DNA from: an uncultured Bacilli bacterium
GTDB lineage: Bacteria; Bacillota_I; Bacilli_A; RF39; UBA660
DNA: 37,141 bases
Reading direction: 5' to 3'
NCBI GenBank assembly: GCA_944331815.1
Contig: CALVIQ010000040.1
Location: 1 to 37,141, forward strand
Positions 8,365 to 21,819 of the stretch are shown here, piece by piece; the first letter of the stretch is position 1; each line of letters starts with the position of its first letter. The notes below the pieces were generated by a model that worked only from the letters and a program-made list of their open reading frames with translations, had not been told where the DNA came from and ran no database searches. Both the position numbers and the translations under genes were made by a program.

Positions 8365-9693
8365 TTAATAATACTTAAGTATTATATCACAATTTTCAGA
8401 TTTTTCTTTACAAAATTTAGATTTTTTTAATCCTGGTAACCATACTATATTATCATCACTATCACACACTATTGGCCATAATTCTCTATCTTTACTTGAT
8501 ATTTTACAATCTATAAAAATATCTGATATCTTTTTTCTACCTAACATTCCTTTAACAGTCATTTTATCTCCATCATGACGATTTCTAACATATAAAGGTA
8601 ATTTAATAGATTTTGAATCTAATCGACATATATTATTATCATCTAATTTTGTTGATTTTATTACCTCTATATTTTTTCCATTAGGTAAATTTAAATATTC
8701 TTCAATTTGAATTTCATATATATCGTTTTTCAAATTTAATTTACACAACTCTAAAGTATTATATGACTTAATAGCTTGTATATTATTAGGTAAATGAATT
8801 GTAGCATTAGGTTTATTAGATAAAATTAAATTATGAATTATTTCACAATGTTTATCATTTATTAACATTAAATCATCTTGATAAATTTTTTCTAACATTA
8901 AATAAATTATTTTTTCTTGAATTAATTTTTCTTGTTTTAAAAATTCTTCAATATTTAAAACATTATCAGGACATATTTTACTATATTTTTTACTTACTTG
9001 TTTATCAATATAATCATTGTATTCTAATAATGTTTTACTAAATTTATAAAATTTTTCATGAACATTTTTATCTTCTTTTTTAAACTCAGGAACAATATAT
9101 TTTCTAAATCTATTTCTTGTATAAACATCCTTAGTATTAGATGAATCTTGCATATACTTTATTTTATTTTTATTTAAATAAGCATATATTTCATCTTTAG
9201 TATAATGAATTAATGGTCTTATAATTGTATAATTATCCATTTTAACTATTTCTGAAAATCCACTGTAACCTCTTAAAGTAGATCCTCTTACTATTCTCAT
9301 TAAAATTGTTTCGATTAGATCATCTGCATGGTGAGCTGTAAACACATATTTAGCATTATATTTTTTAGCTAACTTACTAAAATAATTATATCTGATACTT
9401 CTTGCTTCATTATGAAAATTATCATCACCATACTCTTCAATAACCATAGTTTCAAATATAACACTATTATTTTTACAATAATTTTCTACAAACTTTTGTT
9501 CCTCAAATTGTCCTTTTCTTCCAGTATTGTGATTAACATGAGCACATATTATTTGTAAATCCAAAGCTTTTTTTAATCTAATTAATATATGTAATAATGC
9601 CATAGAATCAGGACCACCTGATACACCTACTATAACTGCATCACCATATTTTAATCTAATATTATTTAATAAATAATCATACACTTTATCCAT
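8365..9693 (-). CDS. tilS: tRNA(Ile)-lysidine synthase
   Basis: Makes lysidine at C34 of tRNA-Ile(CAU), changing its decoding from AUG to AUA; essential in most bacteria. The 442-aa protein has the PP-loop ATP motif SGGPDS (25-30), then HHADDLIETILMRIVRGS and the N-type PP-loop ATPase core, followed by the TilS C-terminal domains (LPLYVRNRHDGDKMTVKGMLGRKKISDIFID). ATG 9693 is chosen for GGTGA upstream; an in-frame longer start at 9705 lacks one. It is the first gene before ftsH, the usual Bacillota order, although the hpt gene often found between them is absent. Confidence 0.94.
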   Translation of the reverse strand: MDKVYDYLLNNIRLKYGDAVIVGVSGGPDSMALLHILIRLKKALDLQIICAHVNHNTGRKGQFEEQKFVENYCKNNSVIFETMVIEEYGDDNFHNEARSIRYNYFSKLAKKYNAKYVFTAHHADDLIETILMRIVRGSTLRGYSGFSEIVKMDNYTIIRPLIHYTKDEIYAYLNKNKIKYMQDSSNTKDVYTRNRFRKYIVPEFKKEDKNVHEKFYKFSKTLLEYNDYIDKQVSKKYSKICPDNVLNIEEFLKQEKLIQEKIIYLMLEKIYQDDLMLINDKHCEIIHNLILSNKPNATIHLPNNIQAIKSYNTLELCKLNLKNDIYEIQIEEYLNLPNGKNIEVIKSTKLDDNNICRLDSKSIKLPLYVRNRHDGDKMTVKGMLGRKKISDIFIDCKISSKDRELWPIVCDSDDNIVWLPGLKKSKFCKEKSENCDIILKYY

Positions 9694-9754
9694 AATATTC
9701 ACCAATAATAATTATATACTAAAAAAAAATAGTAAGCAAGTATATTGCAAAAGA

Positions 9755-9779
9755 AAAAGTGATTTACTAAACCACTTTT
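9755..9779 (-). terminator. Intrinsic terminator downstream of the template repeat
   Basis: A 7-bp stem (AAAAGTG / CACTTTT) with an 11-nt loop, followed on the minus strand by TTCTTTT. It sits about 110 nt beyond the template repeat and would define the 3' end of the template RNA or of the target-gene transcript. Confidence 0.6.
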
Positions 9780-9892
9780 ATTCTTGTTGTATTATCACCA
9801 ATATTTTTAGGTTTTATACCTAGGGAATAAGAATTGTTTCCTAATTCTTGTTTTATACAACCTTGATCATATAAATTAAGTTTAGGAGGAAT

Positions 9893-9972
9893 CTGCACGG
9901 AGACCATTCGTGTTGGACACATCATTGTTGTTGGCATCACCATTGTTGTTCACGTTCCAAGCGTTAGAACTA
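9893..9972 (-). repeat. DGR template repeat (TR)
   Basis: On the minus strand these 80 bp align without gaps to VR1 (offset 250) and VR2 (offset 931). The TR is full of AAC/AAT codons at exactly the positions that vary: translated in the target frame it gives NAWNVNNNGDANNNDVSN, against AAWAVVDNGDANLNAVSF (VR1) and LAWRMNSNVGAGNNSVST (VR2). Of 25 TR adenines, 15 differ in VR1 and 12 in VR2; of 55 other bases only 3 and 7 differ. The 3' end GGTCTCCGTGCAG is identical in all copies. It lies outside any gene, in the usual TR position downstream of its target. Confidence 0.9.
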
Positions 9973-10002
9973 CGTATATTCTTACACCCAAACCTATTGC
10001 CT

Positions 10003-10030
10003 CACCTTGCCCATTTTCATCGGCAAGGTG
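10003..10030 (-). other. GC-rich hairpin 5' of the template repeat
   Basis: A perfect 9-bp stem (CACCTTGCC / GGCAAGGTG) with a 10-nt loop lies between the target stop codon and the TR. It has no T run, so it is not a classical terminator. It could be a structural part of the template RNA or a transcript-end stabiliser. Confidence 0.5.
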
Positions 10031-10071
10031 TGTATTGCTTCGTTTGTACTTATTCTTTTCATATTATTATT

Positions 10072-12072
10072 TTAAATCTTGTATGGACTTGACCAAGTAC
10101 CATTACCTCCGGTAATGGTGACATCAGAGTTGACAATTATAACTGCACGGAGACCAGACGCGAAGGACACAGCATTGAGGTTGGCATCACCATTGTCAAC
10201 CACCGCCCAAGCTGCAGAACTAATTGTAGATGGTGTCATGGTCCAATAGCGACTTGCATTATTATAACTACTTGTTGTTGTATATTCTTTAGTCAATATA
10301 CTACTACTTTGACTTGATAACATTTCTCCCACTCTTATTAATCCCACTGTTGCTTGAATACTTCTTGTTGGATTTTTTTCTTCTAGTGATATTTTATAAC
10401 TTTGACCATAACCAAATTCATTTTGATACCATGTATAGTTATTTACTAATTTTACTTTTTCTATATTATTATTATTTGTTAGCCAATTTAATACATCTCC
10501 ATTTAATTTTTGACCTATTCCTGTTGTTGTTGAAAATATATTTGTACTTGTATCATTATATTTCATTTTAAATATTTTTCCATCTTCTTCATAGTATCCA
10601 TCTAGTATTAATTTTGTATTTCCACTACTATCTTTATCTACTACTCGATATTTTCTTCCAGCAAACAACACATATTCACCACTTGTTGCTTTTTCATTTA
10701 ATTTTCCTGTTATCTCTACATTTTTATCTTCGTTTAAAATATATGGACCTGCTTGACTGCTCCAAGTTGCTCCTAGAGTACCATTACCTCCGGTAATGCT
10801 GACATCAGAGTTGACATTTATAACTGCACGGAGACCATACGCGGTGGAAACGGAATTGTTGCCGGCGCCAACATTGCTGTTCATGCGCCAAGCTAAAGAA
10901 CTACTATTTGGTGTCATTGTCCATTGCCACTGTCCTATATTTAAATAAGAACTACTACCACCAGCAAGATTATATTCATCTAATGTCATTAATCCTACTT
11001 TAGCTTTTTCTTTTGATAAGTTACTTGCACAATTTGTTCTTGCACTATTTTCATCAGTAGTTGTTTCACTACACCATGTTACTTCTTTTATTATATTATT
11101 TCCTTTTAATCTAGGATAAAAATAATTATTTAACCAATCTTTGGCATAACTTCCATCCCAATTTTCAGCAGTATTACTTGCTCCCCATGGTATTGCTGTT
11201 ACATTCTCATCTGTTATTAGCCTTACTGTTCCGTCAGCATTTATTCCCATTATTCTCCATAAAAATCCGGAATACCATAGTGAATTACTTATTGGTTGCA
11301 TAGCAAATAATTCTTCTGGAGTTGTTTGATAAATTAACTCGAATACAGTATCGACACCTGCGTTTGTTAATTGACTTTCTTTTATACCACCATCTGTTAA
11401 AGCCCAATTTTCAAAATTATCGGGTATAAAATTTCCTTCACTATCAAAAAATTTTTGATTAATTATATCTATTGAATCCAATCCAGGTGCACCATTTAGT
11501 CCAGCAACAAATATATCTTTTCCAGATAAACTACTTCTTTTTAAATAACATCCACCCATATAACTATAATTATTAGCTGTTGGAGTTACACATCCATTGC
11601 CATTTGTTTCCAAATATGGAAAATTTGATAACACTACGTCTTTTATTTGGCCTGTTGTTAATATGCCTACACTTCCTTCACATTTTTCATCATCCATGGC
11701 AAATGTTCCACTTGGACATAATGTGAAAGTATGATTATTACTTTCAATTACTAATTCAGTTAATTTTGAACCATTATATTTGATACTTTCTATGGTTGCA
11801 TTACCTAAATTAACCATTTCTTTTACTTTTTCTGCATCTAGACTTGATGTACATATTCTTACATAATCTTCATCCATTTGAGCTTTCACATCTTCTGTTG
11901 CACAATAATTATTTATCCCACCTAATATCATTTGCGCTTCAGATTTACCGGCTGATATTTTAGCATCATCCACTACATTTAATATTATTGGGGTTGCTAT
12001 AAGAGCTACTATGGCTAATATAATTATAACTGCTAGTAACTCTATAAGTGTAAAACCGAATTTGTTTTTCAT
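10072..12072 (-). CDS. Prepilin-like DGR target protein with two variable C-type-lectin-like domains
   Basis: A 666-aa protein that starts with a type IV prepilin signal: short basic leader, G/F cleavage site with Glu at +5 (KNKFGFTLIELLAVIIIL) and one hydrophobic helix, so it should be processed by a prepilin peptidase and assembled or displayed at the surface. After a pilin-like region (to about 200) come two related modules, about 255-450 and 465-666. Each ends in W.MTP..., a variable stretch and GLRAV, then NSDV.ITGGNGT, resembling DUF6273/C-type-lectin-like domains. The variable stretches (residues about 390-417 and 617-644) are DGR variable repeats templated from 9893-9972. AAGGG lies before the ATG. 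It follows the HPt-receiver gene by 29 nt. The ligand is unknown. Confidence 0.88.
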   Translation of the reverse strand: MKNKFGFTLIELLAVIIILAIVALIATPIILNVVDDAKISAGKSEAQMILGGINNYCATEDVKAQMDEDYVRICTSSLDAEKVKEMVNLGNATIESIKYNGSKLTELVIESNNHTFTLCPSGTFAMDDEKCEGSVGILTTGQIKDVVLSNFPYLETNGNGCVTPTANNYSYMGGCYLKRSSLSGKDIFVAGLNGAPGLDSIDIINQKFFDSEGNFIPDNFENWALTDGGIKESQLTNAGVDTVFELIYQTTPEELFAMQPISNSLWYSGFLWRIMGINADGTVRLITDENVTAIPWGASNTAENWDGSYAKDWLNNYFYPRLKGNNIIKEVTWCSETTTDENSARTNCASNLSKEKAKVGLMTLDEYNLAGGSSSYLNIGQWQWTMTPNSSSLAWRMNSNVGAGNNSVSTAYGLRAVINVNSDVSITGGNGTLGATWSSQAGPYILNEDKNVEITGKLNEKATSGEYVLFAGRKYRVVDKDSSGNTKLILDGYYEEDGKIFKMKYNDTSTNIFSTTTGIGQKLNGDVLNWLTNNNNIEKVKLVNNYTWYQNEFGYGQSYKISLEEKNPTRSIQATVGLIRVGEMLSSQSSSILTKEYTTTSSYNNASRYWTMTPSTISSAAWAVVDNGDANLNAVSFASGLRAVIIVNSDVTITGGNGTWSSPYKI
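10101..10117 (-). other. Hairpin 3' of VR1
   Basis: A perfect 7-bp stem with 3-nt loop (CATTACC-TCC-GGTAATG on the plus strand), 25 bp past the 3' end of VR1. It codes for part of the conserved ITGGNG peptide. The same hairpin follows VR2, and none is at the equivalent place beyond the TR. Confidence 0.55.
10143..10222 (-). repeat. DGR variable repeat 1 (VR1)
   Basis: 80 bp encoding residues of about 617-644 near the C-terminus of the prepilin-like protein. It matches the TR at 9893-9972 except at 18 positions, 15 of which are adenines in the TR coding strand; the other three are TR cytosines. Changes fall in AAC/AAT codons: N to A, A, V, D, L, F and S, plus D to A and T to A. The IMH-like GGTCTCCGTGCAG ends the repeat. 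Confidence 0.9.
10782..10798 (-). other. Hairpin 3' of VR2
   Basis: Same CATTACC-TCC-GGTAATG hairpin as after VR1, at the same 25-bp distance from the repeat end. The 46-bp constant flank containing it is 44/46 identical between the two modules. Confidence 0.55.
10824..10903 (-). repeat. DGR variable repeat 2 (VR2)
   Basis: 80 bp encoding residues of about 390-417 in the first lectin-like module. It differs from the TR at 19 positions, 12 of them TR adenines and 7 others. The excess of non-adenine changes suggests an older copy or one made from an earlier version of the template. It ends in the same IMH-like GGTCTCCGTGCAG. Confidence 0.85.
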
Positions 12073-12101
12073 AAATTTTCCCTTCTATATTTTTTTAAAT
12101 A

Positions 12102-12857
12102 TTAATTATTAATTATTTTTTCAACGACTTTTCTAATATCTCTTTCATTAAATGGTTTTCTTAAAACATCAATTATTTTATATTCAAAAGCTTTTTTAAC
12201 AATATCATCATTACCAACTCCTGTTATTATTGCCACAGGTATTTTTTCTAATAAATTATTTCTTTTCATATATTCTAAGACAACAAAACCATTAACATTC
12301 GGCATATTCAAATCTAATAACATTCCTACTAATTTATCATTATTTAATTGTTTTATAGCTTCCATACCATCTTTAGCAACTACAACATTAAATTCATTAT
12401 TAAATATTTTTTTTATAAAACTACTGATTACTTCTGAATCATCAACTACTAAAATAGTTTTATCTTTAACAGTACTAACTTCTTCTTTTTTAATAGTTTC
12501 TTTACCGAAATATTGTCTTACAATATTAAGTATTCTATCTGTTTCATTCATTAATTCATCAAAATTATCATAAACATAATAAATATGATTGGCTTTACTT
12601 TCTAATTCATGATTATACGCTAATTCGGCTAATTTATCAAAGCCAAAATATTTAGCATCACTTTTTAAAGAATGAACTAATATAGCATAATTAGCCATAT
12701 CGGCAATTTCTTTATACTTTTTAATATTACTTATCTTTTCATCTATTTCATTTAAAAATGTTTCTAATGTTTCATTATAAGTATCCATATCACCAAATAA
12801 TTCTAAACTTTTTTCTACATTAACACCATTATCTTTTAATATATTAACATCTTTCAT
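12102..12857 (-). CDS. HPt domain fused to a response-regulator receiver domain
   Basis: Signalling protein of 251 aa. The N-terminal half is a histidine phosphotransfer domain, with the phospho-acceptor H62 in VHSLKSDAKYFGF. A linker near 118-132 leads to a CheY-like receiver with the acidic pair VVDDSE, phospho-acceptor D182 (LLDLNMPNVNG), Thr in IITG and Lys in RKPF. There is no output domain, so it would pass phosphate or signal through protein contact. The kinase partner is unknown. AGGTGATAAT precedes the ATG. It is 29 nt upstream of the prepilin-like DGR target with no terminator between, so the two are probably co-transcribed. Confidence 0.87.
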   Translation of the reverse strand: MKDVNILKDNGVNVEKSLELFGDMDTYNETLETFLNEIDEKISNIKKYKEIADMANYAILVHSLKSDAKYFGFDKLAELAYNHELESKANHIYYVYDNFDELMNETDRILNIVRQYFGKETIKKEEVSTVKDKTILVVDDSEVISSFIKKIFNNEFNVVVAKDGMEAIKQLNNDKLVGMLLDLNMPNVNGFVVLEYMKRNNLLEKIPVAIITGVGNDDIVKKAFEYKIIDVLRKPFNERDIRKVVEKIINN

Positions 12858-12871
12858 ATTATCACCTATAA

Positions 12872-13360
12872 TTAGTATATCACATTTTTGATATTTATTT
12901 TATTATTATTTATCTCTTTTACACATATTTTTAATAGTTCTTCTAAAGATTCAATTGGTTCTTTATTATAATCTAATTTATATAACCAATCTAAATATTT
13001 TATTTTTTCAGCATCATTTGGTCGACCATAAATAACTTTACCACTATGTAACCAATAACCAAATTCGACATTTGTTGTAAAAGCTGGCATATTAGGCAGA
13101 TATCTAGGTATCCAAAAAGCAATTATATTAGCATTACTCAAACCAACTCTTTCCCACATTGCTTGGTCTACATAATCAGTTTTTGGTTTCCAACTAGAAT
13201 ATTCTGGAACATAAACAATTCCATCAAATCCTAAATTTTTCAGTATTTTAATTGCTTCATTTCGCCAAGATATTGTATCTTTATCTCGAGGAGTAGGTCC
13301 AGCTAAAAATATTGATTTTTCACCTTTTATAATTTCTTGATCAGAATAATTTACTATCAT
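12872..13360 (-). CDS. Nucleoside 2-deoxyribosyltransferase-like protein
   Basis: 162 aa with the family pattern FLAGPTPR at the N-terminus, SWRNEAIKILKNLGFDGIVYVPE, the AMWE segment, and FWIPRYLPNMPAFTTNVEFGYW. The Glu of NVEFG is the likely catalytic nucleophile position. Family members exchange or hydrolyse the glycosidic bond of (deoxy)nucleosides or nucleotides. The ATG overlaps the stop of the ASCH gene (ATGA), with GAAGGAG upstream inside that gene, so expression is coupled. The true substrate is unknown. Confidence 0.8.
   Translation of the reverse strand: MIVNYSDQEIIKGEKSIFLAGPTPRDKDTISWRNEAIKILKNLGFDGIVYVPEYSSWKPKTDYVDQAMWERVGLSNANIIAFWIPRYLPNMPAFTTNVEFGYWLHSGKVIYGRPNDAEKIKYLDWLYKLDYNKEPIESLEELLKICVKEINNNKINIKNVIY
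12874..12882 (-). promoter_or_regulatory. Extended -10 promoter for the HPt-receiver/prepilin unit
   Basis: The minus strand reads TGATATACT, a TGn-extended -10, 17 nt before the ATG of the HPt-receiver gene and inside the end of the preceding gene. The -35 region is poor. It would allow the signalling and pilin genes to be expressed apart from the genes upstream. Confidence 0.4.
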
Positions 13361-13758
13361 TTTATATCTCCTTCATAATTCCAAATCCCTAATTTACCTT
13401 TTACTTTAATTGGATTTATTATTTCAATATTATCTAATATCCAAGCATATCTCCCTATTTCATAATGTCCACATACATATTCTTGATGATTTAATTTTAC
13501 TTTATTTATAAAATTATCATCCATATAAACACAATCTTTTAAGTAAGCTTTACAAATTATATTACCATAATGCATATCTAAATTTTCAAATAACTTAACT
13601 AATTCTTTTCTTTCATATATTTCTTTTTTTATTTTAGATATAGATGCTTGAATAAATATTTCTCCCCTATAATTTGTTTTCCAACTTCTAGTTTCAATAT
13701 GTTTAATTTTATGCATAATTAATGTAGCAAAAGGTTCTTTTATTGTTAACACCTTCAT
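13357..13758 (-). CDS. ASCH-domain protein
   Basis: 133 aa with the ASCH fold: KVLTIKEPFATLIMHKIKHIETRSW at the start (the conserved G/KxKxxExR is KIKHIETR), YRGEIFIQAS, and GRYAWILDNIEIINPIKVKGKLGIW at the end. ASCH domains resemble PUA domains and bind RNA or nucleotides; some members act on modified cytidines. It overlaps both neighbours by 4 nt (ATGA), forming a tightly coupled trio with the ferredoxin and the deoxyribosyltransferase-like gene. Confidence 0.82.
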   Translation of the reverse strand: MKVLTIKEPFATLIMHKIKHIETRSWKTNYRGEIFIQASISKIKKEIYERKELVKLFENLDMHYGNIICKAYLKDCVYMDDNFINKVKLNHQEYVCGHYEIGRYAWILDNIEIINPIKVKGKLGIWNYEGDIK

Positions 13759-13949
13759 TTTATATCTTCCAATACTAATGCTTTCTTAGGGCAAAAATTA
13801 GCACATTTACCACACTTAATACACTTATCATAATCAACTATAGGAGCATTAAAATCTGTTTGTGATAATGCATTAACAGGACATACTTTAACTGCCGGAC
13901 ATTTATGATTTTGAGGACATCTTTCAACAACTAATTTTAATTTTTTCAA
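13755..13949 (-). CDS. Small 2x[4Fe-4S] ferredoxin-like protein
   Basis: 64 aa with two cysteine clusters: CPQNHKCPAVKVCP (unusual, widened spacing) and CIKCGKCANFCP (classical CxxCxxCxxxCP). It likely carries electrons or binds Fe-S clusters. The start is TTG at 13949, 6 nt after AGGTGA; there is no in-frame ATG. It overlaps the ASCH gene by 4 nt. The odd first cluster may bind a different cofactor or be a structural site. Confidence 0.82.
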   Translation of the reverse strand: MKKLKLVVERCPQNHKCPAVKVCPVNALSQTDFNAPIVDYDKCIKCGKCANFCPKKALVLEDIK

Positions 13950-14016
13950 ATTACATCACCTTTATCTTTAAAAATATTATATAATATATTTAAATATTAA
14001 GCAAGGAGAATTAATT

Positions 14017-14277
14017 ATGGAAATATTTGAAGGATTAGAAATTATTATAAATATGATTATTGAATTAATATATGATAAAGCGTTTGATAAAAAGAAAAAC
14101 TTAACTAAAAGAATACCTTATATTGCTTTATATTCTTTTTTGTTAAGTTTAATTATTATAGGATTAATTTATTTAATAATAATTTTATTTAAAAATGAGT
14201 ATATTATTTTGTCTATATCATTGACATTAATAGTAATATTACTTTTATATTTGTTAATTAAACCATTTTTTAATTAA
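14017..14277 (+). CDS. Small two-helix membrane protein, unknown function
   Basis: 86 aa, not recognised. AAGGAGA lies 7 nt before ATG 14017. The first 30 residues are a mixed helix, then KKKNLTKR, then two hydrophobic segments (about 40-60 and 65-83) joined by a short acidic turn. It is one of very few plus-strand genes, is divergent from the ferredoxin gene, and its end overlaps the end of the minus-strand gene at 14270 by a few bases. Confidence 0.65.
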   Translation: MEIFEGLEIIINMIIELIYDKAFDKKKNLTKRIPYIALYSFLLSLIIIGLIYLIIILFKNEYIILSISLTLIVILLLYLLIKPFFN

Positions 14278-14761
14278 TTTTTTTTCTAATAATGTCTAAA
14301 ATTTTTGTTTTTATATTTTTGGGTTCATCAAATATAGATTTCTTTTCTTGATTAAAAGAAATCAAAAAAGACATTTCTTTTTTAAATTGTTTTTTTCTAT
14401 ACAAATCATTTTCGATATGTTTAAAGAATTCTATAATTTGTTTTGACATTAAATTAATTATTTTTTGAGCATAATTACCTGATTTTGCATCGGCATGAAT
14501 ATAAACATCACAACTAACTATACTTGCAATTTTAACATTTAATGATGCTTTACAACCGAAAATAACATAATTTGATTTATCGTTTTTATTTCCATTTAAT
14601 AATTGAATTGCTAAAATACTAGTACCATTTTTCTTTCTTTCATAATACAAATATTTGGTATTAATATTTATACCAATTTTTTTGAAAACATCTTCAATTT
14701 CAAACAAGATTTTTTCAAAATATTTATAATCATCATTTTGATTTAAATTTTCTAATTGCAT
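14270..14761 (-). CDS. Hypothetical protein, 163 aa
   Basis: Not recognised. Soluble, lysine-rich protein with a plausible alpha/beta core (GTSILAIQLLNG, YVIFGCKASLNVKIASIVSCDVYIHADA) and a helical second half (YAQKIINLMSKQIIEFFKHIE). AAGGAG precedes the ATG. The N-terminus MQLEN resembles MQLEL of the next upstream small gene, but the rest is unrelated. A terminator separates it from that gene, so it may have its own promoter. Confidence 0.65.
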   Translation of the reverse strand: MQLENLNQNDDYKYFEKILFEIEDVFKKIGININTKYLYYERKKNGTSILAIQLLNGNKNDKSNYVIFGCKASLNVKIASIVSCDVYIHADAKSGNYAQKIINLMSKQIIEFFKHIENDLYRKKQFKKEMSFLISFNQEKKSIFDEPKNIKTKILDIIRKKIN

Positions 14762-14791
14762 AAAGAAACTCCTTTTTATATAACAAAAAAA

Positions 14792-14828
14792 GATATAAAT
14801 TCCATATTTTTAAATTAGAATTTATATC
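14792..14828 (-). terminator. Terminator after the 15102-14839 gene
   Basis: An 11-bp perfect stem, GATATAAATTC / GAATTTATATC, with a 15-nt loop, followed on the minus strand by seven Ts. The stem is AT-rich but long. Confidence 0.65.
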
Positions 14829-14838
14829 AAATATATAA

Positions 14839-15102
14839 TTATTTCAATATTTTTGTTTTATCAGATGTCTTCTCAAATAGTGGTTTCATATCAATTATAG
14901 AATAAACTTTATTTCCTTGATTTATACTTTTTCCATCAATCTTTATAGTAGGATTTTTCAAATCATAATATTTATTGTTTCTTCTTAATAATATTGTTTT
15001 ATATTCAGTATCTATTCCTGAATAACATTCACAACCTCCAAAATTCCACATTGTTATAACAGTACAACATCTAATCTGTGCATAATATAATTCTAATTGC
15101 AT
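14839..15102 (-). CDS. Hypothetical small protein, 87 aa
   Basis: Not recognised. It carries four cysteines near the N-terminus (IRCCTV, GCEC), followed by a charged region and a DLKNPTIKIDGKSINQGNKVYS beta-like stretch. ATG 15102 is chosen because GAGGAG lies 5 nt upstream. It has a good promoter of its own (15132-15161) and a terminator, so it is probably a monocistronic gene. No export signal is evident. Confidence 0.65.
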   Translation of the reverse strand: MQLELYYAQIRCCTVITMWNFGGCECYSGIDTEYKTILLRRNNKYYDLKNPTIKIDGKSINQGNKVYSIIDMKPLFEKTSDKTKILK

Positions 15103-15131
15103 AATACTCCTCACTCCAATTACACTAGCAT

Positions 15132-15161
15132 ATTATATCACACTTATAAAACATTATTCAA
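15132..15161 (-). promoter_or_regulatory. Promoter of the 87-aa gene
   Basis: TTGAAT (15156-15161), 18-nt spacer, TATAAT (15132-15137) on the minus strand, with a TGn extension before the -10. It lies just after the ABC permease stop. Confidence 0.55.
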
Positions 15162-18100
15162 CTGATTTTAATGATTCAATCATATCTATTTTTTTTAGTG
15201 AAAAATGAGTTATTATTTGAACTAAAACAGTAAAGAAAATCATAATTAAGAATGTATAAACATAACTTAATGTATTAATATTTTTAACAAATAATATTTC
15301 GTCTGTTTCTGCTATTGTTAATACAAAATTATTTAAAATTACTCCTAAAAATAAACCTATTAATATTCCTATTGAAGTTAGTATAACAGTTTCTCTATAA
15401 ACATAAGTAGATACTTCGTTATCTTTAAAGCCTAATACTTTTAAAGTAGCAATTTCTCTTTTTCTCTCATTTATATTAATTGTTGTCAAATTATATAAAA
15501 CTATAATTGTTAATAAACTAGATGATACAATAATTAAATAAACAATATTATTCATACCACTTATAATATCATTAAACACATCTAAACTATCAGTTGTAAA
15601 TTGAATATTACTAAAGTATCCAGTATCCATTAAAGTTGTAGCTAAAGATTCATCTACATTAGCAATAATAGTATTATAAGTTATTTCATTAAATATTTTA
15701 TTATAATAATTACTACTCATATAAATATAACTATTAACATAATTTTCACATATACCTTCTACCTTTAAAATAAATAATTCGTTTTCACTATTTCTAATAT
15801 TAATCGATTTACCTACTTCAGCATCTAATAATTCAGCCATTTTTGAAGTTATTATAACACCATTATCAGACAATTCTATCTTTTTACCATTTAAATCATT
15901 TATTTTAATATAATTATCTACTAAAGATAAATCATCAAAAGCTAATAAGTAAGTATCAATATTTTTATTATCAGCATTAAAAGTATAATTTTCCATATGA
16001 GCATATAATAAATTATTTATATTATTATCATTTAATACTTTATTAATTTCTTCATTAATAGTTGATTGTTCATCATTTAGTATAAGCATAGTATCATAAA
16101 CATGTATTTTATCATACTGAATACTTACTAATGAACTAACACTATCTCTTATACCAAACCCGGTTAATAATAAGGCTGTACATCCAGAAATACCTAATAA
16201 AGTCATAATAATTCTTTTTTTATACCTAAATAAATTTCTTATAGTTACTTTCCAAGTAAAAGATAACCTTTTCCAAATAAATTTAATTCTTTCTAATAAT
16301 ACTTTTTTACCATTTTTAGGTGGTTCTGGTCTCAATAATGTAGCAGGAACATATTTAAAATCTTTTAAAACAGTTAATAAAGTTACTATCACCATTAAAG
16401 ATATAGTTACTAAAATAATTGAAACACATGGTATTACTTCAGCATAAGTTTTTAATTCTGGGATTACAAAATTAGCATGATAAATACTATATAAAACATG
16501 AGGAACATATGCATATCCGATTATTAAACCGATAGATAATCCAATAGAAGTAGCAATTAAGACATAAAATAAATAACTTGATACTATTTTTATTTTACTA
16601 ATACCTAAAGATACATAGGTACCTATTTCGCCTCGTTCTTCTTCAATCATTCTTGTCATTGTATTTAAACTCATTAAAAATACTACTAACATAAAGAATA
16701 TTGGAAAAACAGCAGCAATAGCATCAATTTTAACAGCACTTTCGTAAAAATTAGTATATCCACTATTGTCTTCTCTTGACATTAAATACCATTTAGGTTT
16801 CTCAATAGTATTTAATTCTTCTTTAGCATCATTTATTTGATTTTCGGCTTTAGTTATTTCTTCAATATATTTATTATAATTTTCTTCATATTCTTTATAA
16901 CCATCTTCTAATTCTTTTTGAGCACTCTCTAATTTATCATAATTTTCATTTAAAGTATTTACTTGCTTTTCAAATTCTTCATTCCATAAATCAATATTAT
17001 TATTTAATTCTTTTTCTTGTTTATCTAATTCTTCTTTTGTATTTATTAATAATTCTATATTTTTTTTATTTTCTTCTAATAATTTTAATTGAGTACTATA
17101 AGCTATATATTCATCACTACTTGGATCTAATGTAGATAACAAATTATTTAAATTAGTAATTTGTTCGTTTAATAAATTTAAATTAGATTCTAATTCACTT
17201 TCTTTTATATTATATTTTTTTAAAGCATTATTATATTCTTTTTTAGCATCATCTAATTTAGCATTAGCATCATTAAATGTTCTTTCCATTTCTTTATTTG
17301 TTTCATATAATTCATCTTTACCATCTTCCCATTCTTTATAAGAATTATCTAGCTTTTCTTTATTTTCATCTAATTCTTTTTTAGCATCTTCTAATTTTTT
17401 ACCATTAGTTTCTTTTTCATTCAATAATTTTTCTTCTGCTTCATTAATAACATCCATTGCTTCTTTTAATATTTCTTCATATCTTATTGTTTCTCTAATT
17501 GGTTTTAATTCTTTTAATTTGCTATCTAAAACATTAATAACTTCTTTATAATCATCTAAATATGAAGTTTTATCAATACTATTTTTATCAATTATATATA
17601 TTTCAGTATAATATTCTAAATCAAAGTTATCCATTGGTATATAAATATATGTATCTAATTTACCATCACCAATAGTAGAAATACCTTTTGATTTATAAGT
17701 ATATAATGAACTAGTAATTGTACCAGACACAGTGTATTCTTTAATTTTTAAATTATCACTTTCGATAGTTATTTTATCCCCTATTTGATAAGTACCATCT
17801 TCTACTAAACATTCATTACTATTAGGCATTTTACCACTTACTAAATTAACTTTATTAACTTCCGTAATAGCATGAACTCTTGTTACATCACCATTTAACA
17901 AAATATCAAATGAATAAGATGGAACAACAATTAAATCAGATGTTATTTCTTTAATTGACTCAACATCACCTTCAGTTAATCCCATTGTACTTACTATCTT
18001 ATAATCCATTAAAGATGTTTCATCATAATATTCATCCATTGTTTTTATCATATCAGTAGCTGCTTCTCTAATACCAGAGAAAAAAGCACTACCTAACATA

Positions 18101-18171
18101 ACTATAAAAATTAATGATAAAAATCTTCCTAATGATTTTTTTATTTTTCTAAAACTATTTTTATATATCAT
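15154..18171 (-). CDS. MacB/FtsX-type ABC transporter permease with coiled-coil extracellular domain
   Basis: About 1005 aa. An N-terminal membrane segment (about 15-35) is followed by a MacB-like periplasmic-core region and a long, Glu/Lys-rich coiled coil (about 225-465) outside the membrane. Three membrane segments follow with an FtsX domain (about 485-630), another FtsX-associated core (about 680-860) and three final membrane segments. This two-FtsX layout fits exporters of peptides or lipids, or cell-wall signalling in Bacillota. ATG 18171 overlaps the ATPase stop by one base (TAATG). A TTG at 18177 is in frame and has better spacing from GAGGAG, so the start is ambiguous by two codons. 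Confidence 0.87.
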   Translation of the reverse strand: MIYKNSFRKIKKSLGRFLSLIFIVMLGSAFFSGIREAATDMIKTMDEYYDETSLMDYKIVSTMGLTEGDVESIKEITSDLIVVPSYSFDILLNGDVTRVHAITEVNKVNLVSGKMPNSNECLVEDGTYQIGDKITIESDNLKIKEYTVSGTITSSLYTYKSKGISTIGDGKLDTYIYIPMDNFDLEYYTEIYIIDKNSIDKTSYLDDYKEVINVLDSKLKELKPIRETIRYEEILKEAMDVINEAEEKLLNEKETNGKKLEDAKKELDENKEKLDNSYKEWEDGKDELYETNKEMERTFNDANAKLDDAKKEYNNALKKYNIKESELESNLNLLNEQITNLNNLLSTLDPSSDEYIAYSTQLKLLEENKKNIELLINTKEELDKQEKELNNNIDLWNEEFEKQVNTLNENYDKLESAQKELEDGYKEYEENYNKYIEEITKAENQINDAKEELNTIEKPKWYLMSREDNSGYTNFYESAVKIDAIAAVFPIFFMLVVFLMSLNTMTRMIEEERGEIGTYVSLGISKIKIVSSYLFYVLIATSIGLSIGLIIGYAYVPHVLYSIYHANFVIPELKTYAEVIPCVSIILVTISLMVIVTLLTVLKDFKYVPATLLRPEPPKNGKKVLLERIKFIWKRLSFTWKVTIRNLFRYKKRIIMTLLGISGCTALLLTGFGIRDSVSSLVSIQYDKIHVYDTMLILNDEQSTINEEINKVLNDNNINNLLYAHMENYTFNADNKNIDTYLLAFDDLSLVDNYIKINDLNGKKIELSDNGVIITSKMAELLDAEVGKSINIRNSENELFILKVEGICENYVNSYIYMSSNYYNKIFNEITYNTIIANVDESLATTLMDTGYFSNIQFTTDSLDVFNDIISGMNNIVYLIIVSSSLLTIIVLYNLTTININERKREIATLKVLGFKDNEVSTYVYRETVILTSIGILIGLFLGVILNNFVLTIAETDEILFVKNINTLSYVYTFLIMIFFTVLVQIITHFSLKKIDMIESLKSVE

Positions 18172-18872
18172 TACCAATCAATCTCCTCAACTAGTTTTGG
18201 ATTTTTATTAATAATAATATCTTTTACTGTACCATTTTTTATTTTAATTACTTTATCAGCTATATCGGCAATTATTGCATTGTGAGTTATTATAATTGTT
18301 GTCATATTAGAATCGTGACATGTTTTTTGAAGTAGTTCTAATATTAACTTACCTGTTTTAGAGTCTAGTGCGCCAGTAGGCTCATCACATAACAACAATT
18401 TAGGATTTTTAGCTAAAGCACGAGCAATACTAACTCTTTGTTGTTCTCCACCTGATAATTGCGCAGGAAAATGATTTATCCTATCACCTAAATCTACACT
18501 CTTTAATGTTTCTTCGCTATCTTTAGGATTTTTACATATTTGACTTGCTAAAGAAACATTTTCTAAAGCAGTTAAATTACCTACTAAATTATAAAATTGA
18601 AAAACAAAACCAATATCATATCTACGGTAATTAGTTAATTGTTTTTTACTGTATTTTGCAATATCTTTGCCATCTATTATAATACTTCCACTATCAGTCG
18701 TATCCATACCACCTAGGATATTTAAAACAGTTGTTTTTCCAGCACCAGAAGGACCTAAAATAACTACTAATTCTCCTTTTTCAATATCAAAAGAAACATT
18801 TTCTATTGCTTTAATAGAAATTTCTCCCATTTTATATGTTTTACTAATATTTTTAACTTCAATATACGCCAT
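18171..18872 (-). CDS. ABC transporter ATP-binding protein (LolD/MacB type)
   Basis: 233-aa nucleotide-binding subunit that powers the permease encoded next. It has Walker A GPSGAGKT, Q-loop FVFQFYNLV, signature LSGGEQQRV, Walker B LLLCDEPTGALDS and H-loop ITHN. The FQFYNL and EPTGALDS sequences are typical of the MacB/LolD/FtsE group. AGGTGATAAT precedes the ATG, and the stop overlaps the permease start by one base. Confidence 0.93.
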   Translation of the reverse strand: MAYIEVKNISKTYKMGEISIKAIENVSFDIEKGELVVILGPSGAGKTTVLNILGGMDTTDSGSIIIDGKDIAKYSKKQLTNYRRYDIGFVFQFYNLVGNLTALENVSLASQICKNPKDSEETLKSVDLGDRINHFPAQLSGGEQQRVSIARALAKNPKLLLCDEPTGALDSKTGKLILELLQKTCHDSNMTTIIITHNAIIADIADKVIKIKNGTVKDIIINKNPKLVEEIDW

Positions 18873-18888
18873 ATTATCACCTATTTAT

Positions 18889-18897
18889 ATTATACCA
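18889..18897 (-). promoter_or_regulatory. Extended -10 promoter of the ABC operon
   Basis: The minus strand reads TGGTATAAT, a consensus TGn-extended -10, 17 nt upstream of the ATPase ATG and just after the terminator of the permease gene at 18932. The -35 is weak. Confidence 0.5.
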
Positions 18898-18909
18898 TTA
18901 AAATAAGAA

Positions 18910-18933
18910 AAAAACTGAAATAATTCAGTTTTT
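18910..18933 (-). terminator. Terminator of the YfcC-like gene
   Basis: A 10-bp perfect stem, AAAAACTGAA / TTCAGTTTTT, with a 4-nt loop, overlapping the stop codon and followed by a T run on the minus strand. Confidence 0.75.
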
Positions 18934-20398
18934 AAATCATCATATTAGCAATAATAGCAATTACAATTACAACACCAAATATAATTAGTAAATATTTATA
19001 AATATATTTTACCCATTCTTTATAAGGTATTTGTAAATATGATAAACCTGCTATTAAAAATATACTAGTTGGAGCAATTAACATTACTAAACCATACATA
19101 GTTTGGAACATTAATGCGACAATTTGAATAACATTACTATCAAATGTACTAAAAGGACTTGATATAGTTGCTACTAATGTATAAAAATCATTATAGAAGA
19201 AACTAGAAACTAATGTTGCTATTGTTGTTCCAGCAACTGAGAAATTTTCTCCAACAAATTGATTTGTAATAGTGTTTACAAAATCACTACCATTCATATT
19301 TAAAATTGCAGTAAATACTACACATGATAATCCTGCATACATTGCTGGAGCAAACATCTCTTTCATTCCTTTAATAAATCCATCAACAGCTTCACTAAAT
19401 TTAACACTATAAATCCACATAATAACCAAAGATGTTATTACTAATACAGCTATTATATCATAATTTCCCCATAATCCTAAAGCAGATCCACTACCTATTA
19501 AATTAGCAAAAATTTCATAATTTCCTATTTTAGCACTCATCAAAGATTCATGAAAATCTTCTAAAAATGAAATTCCAAATGTATAAGATAAATTATAAAC
19601 TCCAAATACTAATATTACAAACATTATAGCAACAATAAGTACAAGAGGTAAAATACCTTTTTCACTACGTAATTCCTTATATAATGGAATATCAACTTTT
19701 TCTTCTTTAACTTCTGCTGTTTTTTCTTTTGCTTTTTTGTCTTTAACTATTTCTTTTTTGGTTACTTCTTTTTTAAATAAACTTTTTTTACTAACCAAAA
19801 TAACAAATAAAGATGTTACAATTATTAATAAAATAATTCTTATTAAAATTAAACTAGTCATTGTAAACGCACTATCTAATTGACCAAAAACGATTTTTAA
19901 ATATCCCCATGTTCCAAAGCCAATTGTTGAACCGATTTGACCTACTAACATTGCTCCAATAGTAGAAGCAAGAGCATTAATTTTACTATAACCTAATTTT
20001 AAAAGAACTGTTATAAAAAAAGGTACCAAAATTAAAATAACATTAAGAGTTCCTACAATAGAAGATAATAAAGCAAAAAATACAATTGTAATAATTAAAA
20101 ACTTTTTGTTATTATTATTATATTTTTTAACTACACCATCAACAATTTTTGTATAAACACCCGTCTTATTTAAAACACCATAAAATCCACCAATAGCTAG
20201 AATCAACAAAATATATTGAATAAAAGTAGCTAATGAAATAAATGGTAATCTAACTAAATCATAAAGTCCTAACGGAACAGCAGCATCTGCAGAACTAAAT
20301 GATCCACTAGAATAACTTCCTGCTGGAATAACCCAACTCATTAAAAATACAATTAAAAATGTTATCCCCAATACTTTTAATAAATCATACTTTTTCAT
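18932..20398 (-). CDS. YfcC/DcuC-like membrane carrier
   Basis: 488 aa with about 11-12 membrane segments and a charged cytoplasmic loop of Lys/Glu repeats (about 215-245). The N-terminus (FLIVFLMSWVIPAGSY) and FTAILNMNGSDFVNTI region fit the YfcC/C4-dicarboxylate anaerobic carrier group of the ion transporter superfamily, which moves dicarboxylates, amino acids or peptides. The substrate is not deducible. ATG 20398 follows GGAGG at 12 nt and AGGA at 5 nt; the frame open to 20437 lacks a site. Single gene with its own promoter and terminator. Confidence 0.72.
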   Translation of the reverse strand: MKKYDLLKVLGITFLIVFLMSWVIPAGSYSSGSFSSADAAVPLGLYDLVRLPFISLATFIQYILLILAIGGFYGVLNKTGVYTKIVDGVVKKYNNNNKKFLIITIVFFALLSSIVGTLNVILILVPFFITVLLKLGYSKINALASTIGAMLVGQIGSTIGFGTWGYLKIVFGQLDSAFTMTSLILIRIILLIIVTSLFVILVSKKSLFKKEVTKKEIVKDKKAKEKTAEVKEEKVDIPLYKELRSEKGILPLVLIVAIMFVILVFGVYNLSYTFGISFLEDFHESLMSAKIGNYEIFANLIGSGSALGLWGNYDIIAVLVITSLVIMWIYSVKFSEAVDGFIKGMKEMFAPAMYAGLSCVVFTAILNMNGSDFVNTITNQFVGENFSVAGTTIATLVSSFFYNDFYTLVATISSPFSTFDSNVIQIVALMFQTMYGLVMLIAPTSIFLIAGLSYLQIPYKEWVKYIYKYLLIIFGVVIVIAIIANMMI

Positions 20399-20419
20399 TT
20401 TTCCTATACCTCCAAAATA

Positions 20420-20448
20420 ATTATAATAAAAAAACATAAATATTACAA
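20420..20448 (-). promoter_or_regulatory. Promoter of the YfcC-like gene
   Basis: TTGTAA (20443-20448), 17-nt spacer, TATAAT (20420-20425) on the minus strand, 22 nt before the ATG. Confidence 0.6.
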
Positions 20449-20463
20449 GAAAAATACCAAAAT

Positions 20464-20493
20464 TTCACAATTTTTTTACAAAAATGGTATAAT
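20464..20493 (+). promoter_or_regulatory. Promoter of the radical SAM gene
   Basis: TTCACA (20464-20469), 18-nt spacer, TGGTATAAT with TATAAT at 20488-20493, 15 nt before the ATG. It is divergent from the YfcC-like promoter. Confidence 0.65.
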
Positions 20494-20508
20494 AAACATG
20501 GTGATTTT

Positions 20509-21429
20509 ATGAATTTTATATATTCTAATACAAATAAAAGGTATCACACATTAGATTATTATTATAAAAATAAATTTAAAACAAAAATTATAAAAATAAG
20601 TTTAAATGCTGGTTTTAGCTGTCCCCACTTAAAAAGTGGTGGTTGTATCTATTGTAGTAACTTAGGTAGCGGTGAATATGCAGGAAATATAAATGATGAC
20701 TTAATTACCCAATTTAATAAAGGTAAAGAAATGATGAATAAAAAATGGCCAAATGGCAAATATATTGGATACTTTCAAGCAAGAACAAATACTTATGCTC
20801 CACTTGAAATATTAAAAGAAAAATATGAAACTATTTTAAACTTAAAAGATGTAATTGGATTATCTATAGCTACAAGACCAGATTCTATTAGTGATGAATG
20901 TTTAGAATACTTAGATAAATTAAATAAAAAAACATTTTTAACCATTGAACTTGGATTACAGACTATTCATGAAGAAACTTCTAAATTAATAAATAGAGGG
21001 CATGATTTAAATTGCTTTATTGATATGGTTAAAAAATTAAGGCAAAAAAATATTAATGTTGTCGTTCATATTATTAATGGACTACCTTATGAGACAAAAG
21101 AAATGATGTTAGAAACTGTTAAATTTTTAAATAAATTGGATATACAAGGAATAAAAATTCATATGCTTCACATATTAAAAAACACAAAATTAGAAAAAAT
21201 ATATAATCAAAACAAATTTAAATTATTAACAAAAGAAGAATACATAAAATTAGTTTGTGAACAATTAGAATACCTAAGACCAGAAATAGTTATTCATCGA
21301 TTAACTGGTGATCCTAAAGTCGAAGATTTAATAGAACCAAAATGGATTACTAAAAAAATTGACGTTTTAAATGGTATAGATAAATACATGTCTAATAAAA
21401 ATATTGTACAAGGTGATAAAATTATATAA
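20509..21429 (+). CDS. TIGR01212-family radical SAM protein (YtqA/YhcC-like)
   Basis: 306-aa radical SAM enzyme. The Fe-S cluster cysteines are in FSCPHLKSGGCIYCS, with the extended spacing characteristic of this family rather than the plain CxxxCxxC. Further family features are YFQARTNTYAP, IGLSIATRPDS and LTIELGLQTIHE. The exact reaction of YtqA/YhcC proteins is poorly defined. GGTGAT precedes the ATG. It is followed by a 160-bp AT-rich gap with no recognisable element. Confidence 0.9.
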   Translation: MNFIYSNTNKRYHTLDYYYKNKFKTKIIKISLNAGFSCPHLKSGGCIYCSNLGSGEYAGNINDDLITQFNKGKEMMNKKWPNGKYIGYFQARTNTYAPLEILKEKYETILNLKDVIGLSIATRPDSISDECLEYLDKLNKKTFLTIELGLQTIHEETSKLINRGHDLNCFIDMVKKLRQKNINVVVHIINGLPYETKEMMLETVKFLNKLDIQGIKIHMLHILKNTKLEKIYNQNKFKLLTKEEYIKLVCEQLEYLRPEIVIHRLTGDPKVEDLIEPKWITKKIDVLNGIDKYMSNKNIVQGDKII

Positions 21430-21589
21430 TTTTATAAATTATAATCGTTATTTTAAATATATATATTCTAATATTTTAAAATGATATAGATAATTTTATA
21501 AATTAATAATTTTTTTTGCTAATTTTTAAAATCATTGATTTGATTTAAATTTTTATTTAATTATAATTGTAGATAAAGGAGGAGTTATT

Positions 21590-21796
21590 ATGGAAAAATT
21601 TATACAAAAAAAATCTCGTCTTTCTGAAGATGAGATTAACGAATTATTATATTATTATGAGCAAGGTATAAATATTGGAAAAGAAGAAATATTATTAACT
21701 GTAATAAATAATATGATAAATTTAAAATTTGATAAAAACACAATTGCAAAAATAATTAATAAAAAAGAAAATACCATTGAAAATTATTTAAATTAA
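21590..21796 (+). CDS. Small protein with C-terminal helix-turn-helix-like end
   Basis: 68 aa, not firmly recognised. AAAGGAGGAG lies before the ATG, a strong site. The last part (NLKFDKNTIAKIINKKENTIENYL) reads like a short helix-turn-helix and resembles the C-terminal tail of Rpn/PD-(D/E)XK transposase-like proteins, but the nuclease part is missing. It could be a stand-alone regulator or the remnant of such a gene. It ends at a bidirectional terminator. Confidence 0.6.
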   Translation: MEKFIQKKSRLSEDEINELLYYYEQGINIGKEEILLTVINNMINLKFDKNTIAKIINKKENTIENYLN

Positions 21797-21797
21797 A

Positions 21798-21819
21798 AAA
21801 AGTCTGTTTATAGACTTTT
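21798..21819. terminator. Bidirectional terminator
   Basis: An 8-bp stem, AAAAGTCT / AGACTTTT, with a 6-nt loop, followed by ATTTTTTTTT on the plus strand and by TTTTTT on the minus strand. It ends both the plus-strand small gene and the convergent HerA-like gene. Confidence 0.75.

Follow-up and report, generated by a model that had tools for sequence, protein, structure and literature searches.

The 37,141-nucleotide contig CALVIQ010000040.1 of an uncultured Bacilli bacterium (assembly GCA_944331815.1, lineage RF39, UBA660), which is here called the window and whose source likely lives in the gut, carries a prepilin-like gene with two variable repeats (VRs) and a nearby non-coding template repeat (TR), which are the target and the template of a diversity-generating retroelement (DGR). 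Judged from the sequence, adenine-targeted diversification of the prepilin-like gene from the nearby template is strongly supported, and we consider it probable that the locus is a template-only DGR cassette, whose adenine differences would have been written by a reverse transcriptase (RT) encoded elsewhere in the same genome. The gene, the repeats and the inverted repeats that follow them are:

10072..12072, minus strand: target gene, 666 aa, with a prepilin N-terminus (Pfam N_methyl 30.1 bits, over the cut-off) and a DUF6273-like region
10824..10903, minus strand: VR1, in mid-gene, with 12 of 25 adenines and 7 of 55 other positions changed relative to the TR
10143..10222, minus strand: VR2, the C-terminal copy in the gene, with 15 of 25 adenines and 3 of 55 other positions changed
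9893..9972, minus strand: TR, 80 nt, non-coding, a gap-free match to both VRs with adenine-specific differences
10780..10800, minus strand: inverted repeat after VR1, 23 bp past it, like that after VR2 but with one stem mismatch
10099..10119, minus strand: inverted repeat after VR2, 23 bp past it, with a 9-bp stem and a 3-nt GGA loop

We numbered the VRs in gene order (VR1 is the copy at 10824 and VR2 the copy at 10143), which an earlier note on this DNA had reversed. Aligned without gaps, the TR is identical to VR2 at 62 of 80 positions and to VR1 at 61 of 80, which bears out the 80-bp repeat with two copies in the gene described in that note, and the next best ungapped 80-mer match on either strand of the window reaches 41/80. 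The counts of changed adenines and non-adenines given there were exact, and the bias towards template adenines has a one-sided Fisher p of 2.5e-7 for VR2 and 1.1e-3 for VR1, with the changed adenines becoming G, C and T in 5, 5 and 5 cases in VR2 and in 6, 3 and 3 cases in VR1. The TR codons are in frame in both VRs, and AAC and AAT codons cannot turn into stops through changes of their adenines. VR2 agrees with the TR at 52 of 55 non-adenine positions, and all three mismatches are third positions of AAC codons. The invariant 3' end that had been proposed, GGTCTCCGTGCAG, is present alike in the TR, VR1 and VR2, and beyond it the inverted repeat found at both VRs was not found after the TR, which is the arrangement of a DGR target site.

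The homologue search returned 401 proteins, of which the 120 best were listed, the window's own included; no near-identical strain was among these 120 of 401 matches, and all others were at most 80% identical over the searched region. For entropy we aligned 46 sequences, namely the window protein and 45 of the 119 other listed homologues (65-82% identity), which are mostly other species or paralogues and not strains of one species. Codons with a template adenine in position 1 or 2 had a mean entropy of 2.65 bits in VR1 (14 codons) and 2.67 bits in VR2 (14 codons), the remaining 12 codons per repeat had 0.43 bits (VR1) and 0.30 bits (VR2), and the flanking residues (n=281) had a mean of 0.50 bits, with 5 of the 281 above 2.5 bits. 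The excess at template-adenine positions on which the earlier note had staked its proposal is thus present across the 46 sequences, between homologues and not within one species. In sequence terms, the window prepilin shows DGR-type targeted variation.

The DGR cassette proposed for this locus stood in its template and target and fell short in its enzymes, as the search of the 37-kb window gave no gene for an RT, Avd or MutS_I. Pfam detected none of the three in 30 of the 35 window open reading frames (ORFs) of at least 90 aa (the five ORFs outside the scan being 90-121 aa long), and tblastn of the window with four RTs and with the Avd and MutS_I proteins of relatives gave one weak Avd match only, which lies inside the ParB gene (E 0.075). 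The locus thus holds a TR/VR pair differing mainly at TR adenines with neither RT nor Avd found beside it; with no RT in the locus it was filed as a component cassette and not as a complete DGR, and as a template-and-target cassette it would need a remote enzyme.

The stretch around the TR appears to form a template RNA (TR-RNA) with the following parts:

10003..10030, minus strand: hairpin between the target gene and the TR, with a 9-bp stem, a possible 5' part of the TR-RNA
9750..9892, minus strand: conserved 3' scaffold of the presumed TR-RNA, with homologous scaffolds found 48 times in 16 of 18 genomes of the genus
9749..9779, minus strand: terminator-like stem that closes the presumed TR-RNA at its 3' end; one of 16 sequences has both partners altered in 2 of the pairs

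The 9-bp stem of the 5' hairpin is intact in 14 of 17 aligned cassettes, among which no covariation was seen in it. An RNA scaffold 3' of the TR is common to the window and the RT-linked copies in two alignments (A1 and A2) and in a covariance model, and A2, with 16 sequences, folds with the terminator-like stem; a rule-based terminator scan called none, so that this stem comes from the 16-sequence alignment. A promoter scan gave 1 site versus 3.2 expected, and Rfam found tRNA only. At ungapped sites the window scaffold is 92.9% identical to that in the same slot of G002:C39 (83.9% counting gaps) and 87.9% identical to that of G015 (78.8% with gaps), whereas fourfold-degenerate sites between the window and G002 are 65.9% identical in tilS (of 88) and 63.9% in ftsH (of 208), and between the window and G015 62.0% in tilS and 68.7% in ftsH. 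Scaffold identity is thus far above that of the fourfold sites of tilS and ftsH, and the scaffold does not seem to be decaying freely; its conservation would mean that it is either under constraint or was recently copied from another cassette.

The comparison set consisted of 18 genomes of the genus (G001 and so on), 68-94% complete, in which a missing RT is weak evidence; the nearest genome compared shares 21% of the window's sampled words. The covariance model of the scaffold gave its 48 matches mostly without an RT alongside, and a sequence profile on the fetched stretches likewise gave 48 scaffolds, window included, 9 of them with MutS_I-(Avd)-RT downstream (a motif rule counts 8 RT-linked scaffolds and misses G012:C6). 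Among the 35 scaffolds of at least 120 nt, 24, including that of the window, have no RT within 3 kb downstream although at least 3 kb of sequence is present there; among these 24, only G004:C38 is preceded immediately by an RT, a more divergent one. G001, G003, G004, G008, G010 and G013 each possess one RT-linked scaffold of at least 120 nt and 2 to 5 others.

The enzyme-less scaffolds return to the same slots before housekeeping genes. In the window the gene that marks the slot is:

8365..9705, minus strand: tilS (Pfam), a housekeeping gene outside the cassette

Enzyme-less scaffolds lie before tilS in the window, G002, G010 and G015, before cofD-whiA in G004 (Pfam) and in G001, G003, G010 and G015 (matching run of ORF lengths), before fmt in G002 (Pfam) and in G008 and, behind a second prepilin, G004 (both by ORF lengths), and before parA-parB in G013 and, with a short scaffold piece, G007. 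Other such slots are at an aspartyl-tRNA synthetase-like gene (G017), hrcA (G013), an S10 ribosomal gene (G006), an ABC transporter ATPase gene (G008) and a Mur ligase (G013). No TR cassette was found at tilS in the eight other genomes compared (G001, G003, G004, G006, G008, G013, G014, G017), in which homology to the window stops abruptly at 9746 (G003, G004, G006, G008), 9739 (G001, G014) or 9724-9727 (G013, G017), that is, where the TR-RNA has its 3' end or slightly below it. A 175-aa ORF, SpoIIR-like by eye, stands directly before tilS in G001, G006, G013 and G017, and the prepilin-TR unit separates this ORF from tilS in G002 and G015. The slot before tilS may be a hot spot for insertions: elsewhere it holds large ORFs in G003 and G014 and several ORFs in G004 (L226, L227, L229).

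Complete loci in relatives have the gene order prepilin, TR-RNA, MutS_I-like, Avd-like and RT. The MutS_I-like protein, encoded between the TR-RNA and Avd (L150:5919-6329, L043:2830-3243), is small (136-137 aa) and contains MutS domain I, for which the two scanned were both over the Pfam cut-off. Two Avd-like proteins matched NCBIfam DivGenRetAVD with E values of 2e-9 and 5e-10, under the curated cut-off, and were also under the cut-off of Pfam bAvd; in the locus of G004:C20 no Avd ORF was called. The RT has about 332 aa, and the listed RTs carry the motif IGN.TSQ or a close variant, which we take to be the DGR form of this RT motif. The best Protein Data Bank (PDB) relative of the G001 RT is 8ub7 (E 7.3e-25), presumably the BPP-1 DGR enzyme. 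In 9 of the 18 genomes, G001 included, there is a single full-length RT that is at least 75% identical to the G001 query, and the three genomes nearest by tilS (G003, G004 and G008; 96-97% aa identity) have one such RT each. We infer that an RT is also present in the window's own genome. Short RT fragments were seen in G007:C26 beside a TR scaffold (L168) and in G013:C2 and G008:C20 (L199, L200), and they suggest that enzyme loss happens in the genus. More divergent RTs (L202, L201, L204, L173, L203), about 38-58% identical and with an IGN/IGS..SQ motif, are each preceded by a small ORF and by one the size of Avd, which suggests further DGR lineages in the genus.

Action in trans was assessed by comparing 57 VRs of at least 74 nt with 28 TRs; for 8 of the VRs no TR was among the elements collected from their genome, and these were left out, which kept 49, and sums over pairs were taken on the 30 of 49 VRs with at most 8 non-adenine mismatches. 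Identical elements of one genome were collapsed, and VR G008:C14:5513 was thus counted as remote though the C14 scaffold adjoins it. Of the VRs that have no TR within 1.5 kb, ten differ from a TR of their own genome at 0-1 non-adenine positions, and six remote VRs were left after dropping contig-end and collapsed cases: two in G002:C5, two in G008:C6 and one each in G004:C12 and G004:C23. These six are on contigs without a scaffold match and show 6-14 adenine changes and 0-1 non-adenine mismatches relative to a TR elsewhere in the genome. Contigs G013:C25 and G008:C12 end just past their VR, are not callable as remote and are not among the six, and an adjacency test of G013:C25 against C15 gave no exact overlap. 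Remote pairs sum to 22/645 non-adenine changes, and without the limit of 8 mismatches the 22 local pairs sum to 281/530 adenine and 183/1098 non-adenine changes. It is likely, on these comparisons, that one remote enzyme serves several template genes. In G008, the TR and VR at the RT-linked C14 are apparently letter-identical to those at the enzyme-less C52 (L153, L147), which would fit recent copying as well as duplicate strains within the bin.

We propose that a TR-RNA comprising the 5' hairpin, the TR, the conserved 3' scaffold and the terminator would be made from this site, and that a remote RT with Avd would bind its scaffold and act in trans. In copying the TR, the RT would make errors at adenines, and the cDNA would replace repeats at sites marked by the common 3' end and the inverted repeat beyond it. 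It is further conceivable, although we put this forward tentatively and would sooner doubt it than rely on it, that hypermutation is distributed throughout the genus, with one RT-Avd-MutS_I locus reading many free-standing template-RNA genes, each of which sits with a prepilin before a different housekeeping operon, and with templates cross-writing targets so that the prepilins are template mosaics.

Several observations weigh against writing by a remote RT. The window's own assembly is outside the compared genomes, so that the enzyme there is a putative one, and G002, the fourth nearest by tilS (94%; 85% complete), yielded no full-length RT of this clade in our search; it retains three scaffolds of at least 120 nt and near-perfect repeats. 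Two of the six remote VRs, one each in G002:C5 and G008:C6, fit a TR of another genome better than their own (0 versus 1 mismatch), because TRs of the same type are alike between species. Non-adenine changes amount to 65/608 in enzyme-less local pairs versus 11/247 in RT-linked pairs (VRs within the limit of 8), and the local or best TR leaves more than 2 non-adenine mismatches in 32 of the 49 VRs. A clean gradient of non-adenine mismatches along the repeat, which partial copying from the 3' end would give, was not found, the rate by distance from the 3' end being 0.039 (2-13 nt) and 0.095 (14-25 nt) and falling to 0.049 (62-73 nt). The window alone among the 16 aligned scaffolds is without 12-14 nt of the terminator loop, and its identity to G002:C39 drops once gaps are counted. 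Scaffold conservation could also come from copying between cassettes, since the window TR-RNA is more similar to those of G008:C52 (97.1%) and G003:C81 (96.2%), which occupy other slots, than to its slot-mates (G002:C39, 92.3%; G015:C17, 90.0%).

VR1, with its 7 non-adenine differences, fits the local TR poorly and belongs to the same side of the balance. Its middle block TCCGTTTCC is that of the TR type of G002:C11 and G004:C20, and its 3' end is that of the local TR, so that VR1 is mosaic in a way that could come from two templates, from an older local template or from a junction inside the prepilin gene. Descent of the whole of VR1 from another known TR type was rejected, as the best alternatives (G002:C11 and G003:C81) also leave 7 non-adenine mismatches; another template is therefore indicated for the middle block only.

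If a complete DGR had lost its RT locally and the genome had none elsewhere, the differences would be fossils of past activity. The short RT fragments in the genus (one of them beside a TR scaffold), the shortened terminator loop of the window, the drift of VR1 and the 9 of 18 genomes in which no closely related full-length RT was found, several of them with cassettes and many assemblies being incomplete, would all fit such a dead remnant, but the near-complete agreement of VR2 with the TR outside adenines speaks for recent writing, neighbouring fourfold sites are far less conserved than the scaffold, and each of the three genomes nearest by tilS has one closely related RT locus, so we regard a dead remnant as unlikely. 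Ordinary duplication and gene conversion between paralogous prepilins under diversifying selection, with no RT involved, could draw on the many paralogous prepilins of several genomes and on the mosaic pattern of VR1, but we give it almost no credence, because the changes sit on adenines of the non-coding copy with the probabilities given above and use all three product bases, the other codons of the same repeats are conserved across the 46 sequences, and the complete loci of relatives include downstream genes for an Avd-like protein and an RT.

A misjoin inside the prepilin gene, by which VR1 and the upstream genes would come from another prepilin locus than VR2, the TR and tilS, is improbable in our estimate and would be compatible with writing by a remote RT for VR2 and the TR. 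Window positions 10061-22114 are largely collinear with G008:C6 (85-91%, four blocks), which has a prepilin and in which the covariance model found no TR scaffold, and from 9746 downward the window is collinear with G008:C18; in comparison with G008, a relative near by tilS, the two halves join only through the prepilin-TR unit (9746-10061), and VR1 fits the local TR worse than VR2 does. Each side of the junction nevertheless recurs in relatives, the junction of TR and tilS in G002, G010 and G015 and that of the response-regulator gene and the prepilin in G008, and no clear switch point was seen in identity to G008 along the prepilin gene. The junction may therefore be either recombination between paralogous cassettes, which explains the collinearity equally well, or a contig misjoin within the gene.

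The lectin-like C-terminus claimed for the target protein could not be established. The DUF6273-like domain scored 20.4 bits in one scan of the window protein and 22.1 bits in another, just under the Pfam cut-off of 23.5, whereas the homologue P0003 was over it, and AlphaFold2 models were of low confidence both for the whole target (46 sequences, mean pLDDT 47.8) and for its last domain (21 sequences, mean pLDDT 37.2). A PDB sequence search with the target profile gave only pilins, via the N-terminus, and weak cathepsin B matches. At the edge of the window, at 134-1384, a DDE transposase gene was observed.

DGR loci that are incomplete and served in trans have been described before, as far as the part of the report available to us goes (PMC10907252). 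In Thiohalocapsa PB-PSB1, that text describes one complete DGR locus per class together with loci without key machinery, and repeats at two RT-less loci that match the TR of another locus at all non-adenine sites, read there as action in trans (PMC10907252). The RT-less loci here resemble these in their near-perfect non-adenine match to a remote TR, but the Thiohalocapsa loci are called degenerate and transposon-shaped in that portion of the report and come from one genome (PMC10907252), whereas the cassettes here occupy recurrent slots before housekeeping operons in several species and have a conserved scaffold, a terminator-like end and prepilin targets. Accessible passages on Treponema denticola and cyanobacteria attribute several targets per genome to one core DGR locus (PMC4891356, PMC7517822); the remote loci described there are target genes, while many of those here also carry their own TR-RNA stretch. 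According to the excerpt at hand, a Stenotrophomonas DGR has two TRs with six VRs (PMC6642488).

The parallels with BPP-1 are adenine-directed differences, a common 3' repeat end, an inverted repeat after the VR and a 3' stretch after the TR, to which the relatives add Avd and RT. Within the consulted sections, efficient homing of BPP-1 requires a hairpin or cruciform beyond the VR, and phage DGRs have stems of 7-10 bp, 4-nt GRNA loops and distances of 4-34 bp (PMC3240598), unlike the 9-bp inverted repeat with a 3-nt GGA loop found here. The BPP-1 spacer 3' of the TR is described, in the sections of another report that we draw on, as folding and recruiting the RT-Avd complex (PMC12875486), and by analogy the window scaffold may have the same role. 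As BPP-1 is presented in these extracts, its components are in one locus, in contrast to the order TR, MutS_I, Avd and RT in the relatives and to the window, in which no enzyme was found. Gut phage DGR targets with DUF6273 have, in the respective extracts, the variable region inside the domain with a C-type lectin-like model (PMC10743442) or at its C-terminus (PMC11792537), whereas the target here is a bacterial gene with a prepilin N-terminus, two VRs per polypeptide and DUF6273 under the cut-off. Among the top matches, as seen in titles and starts of abstracts with few subscription journals, none dealt with DGRs of this genus or with template-only cassettes that occupy recurrent slots. In the literature covered, what seems to be new is the TR-plus-prepilin cassette with its own terminator-like end in recurrent slots across species, together with a MutS_I protein at the enzyme locus.

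RT-gene-based searches can miss template-only loci, and a large DGR survey states, in its available part, that its own approach would not detect remote targets (PMC8144416). If the cassettes are indeed served in trans, more genes would be under targeted hypermutation in these bacteria than the count of DGR enzymes suggests, the choice of template would be an evolvable layer, and the conserved scaffold would be a compact RNA for probing template recognition by a DGR enzyme in trans.

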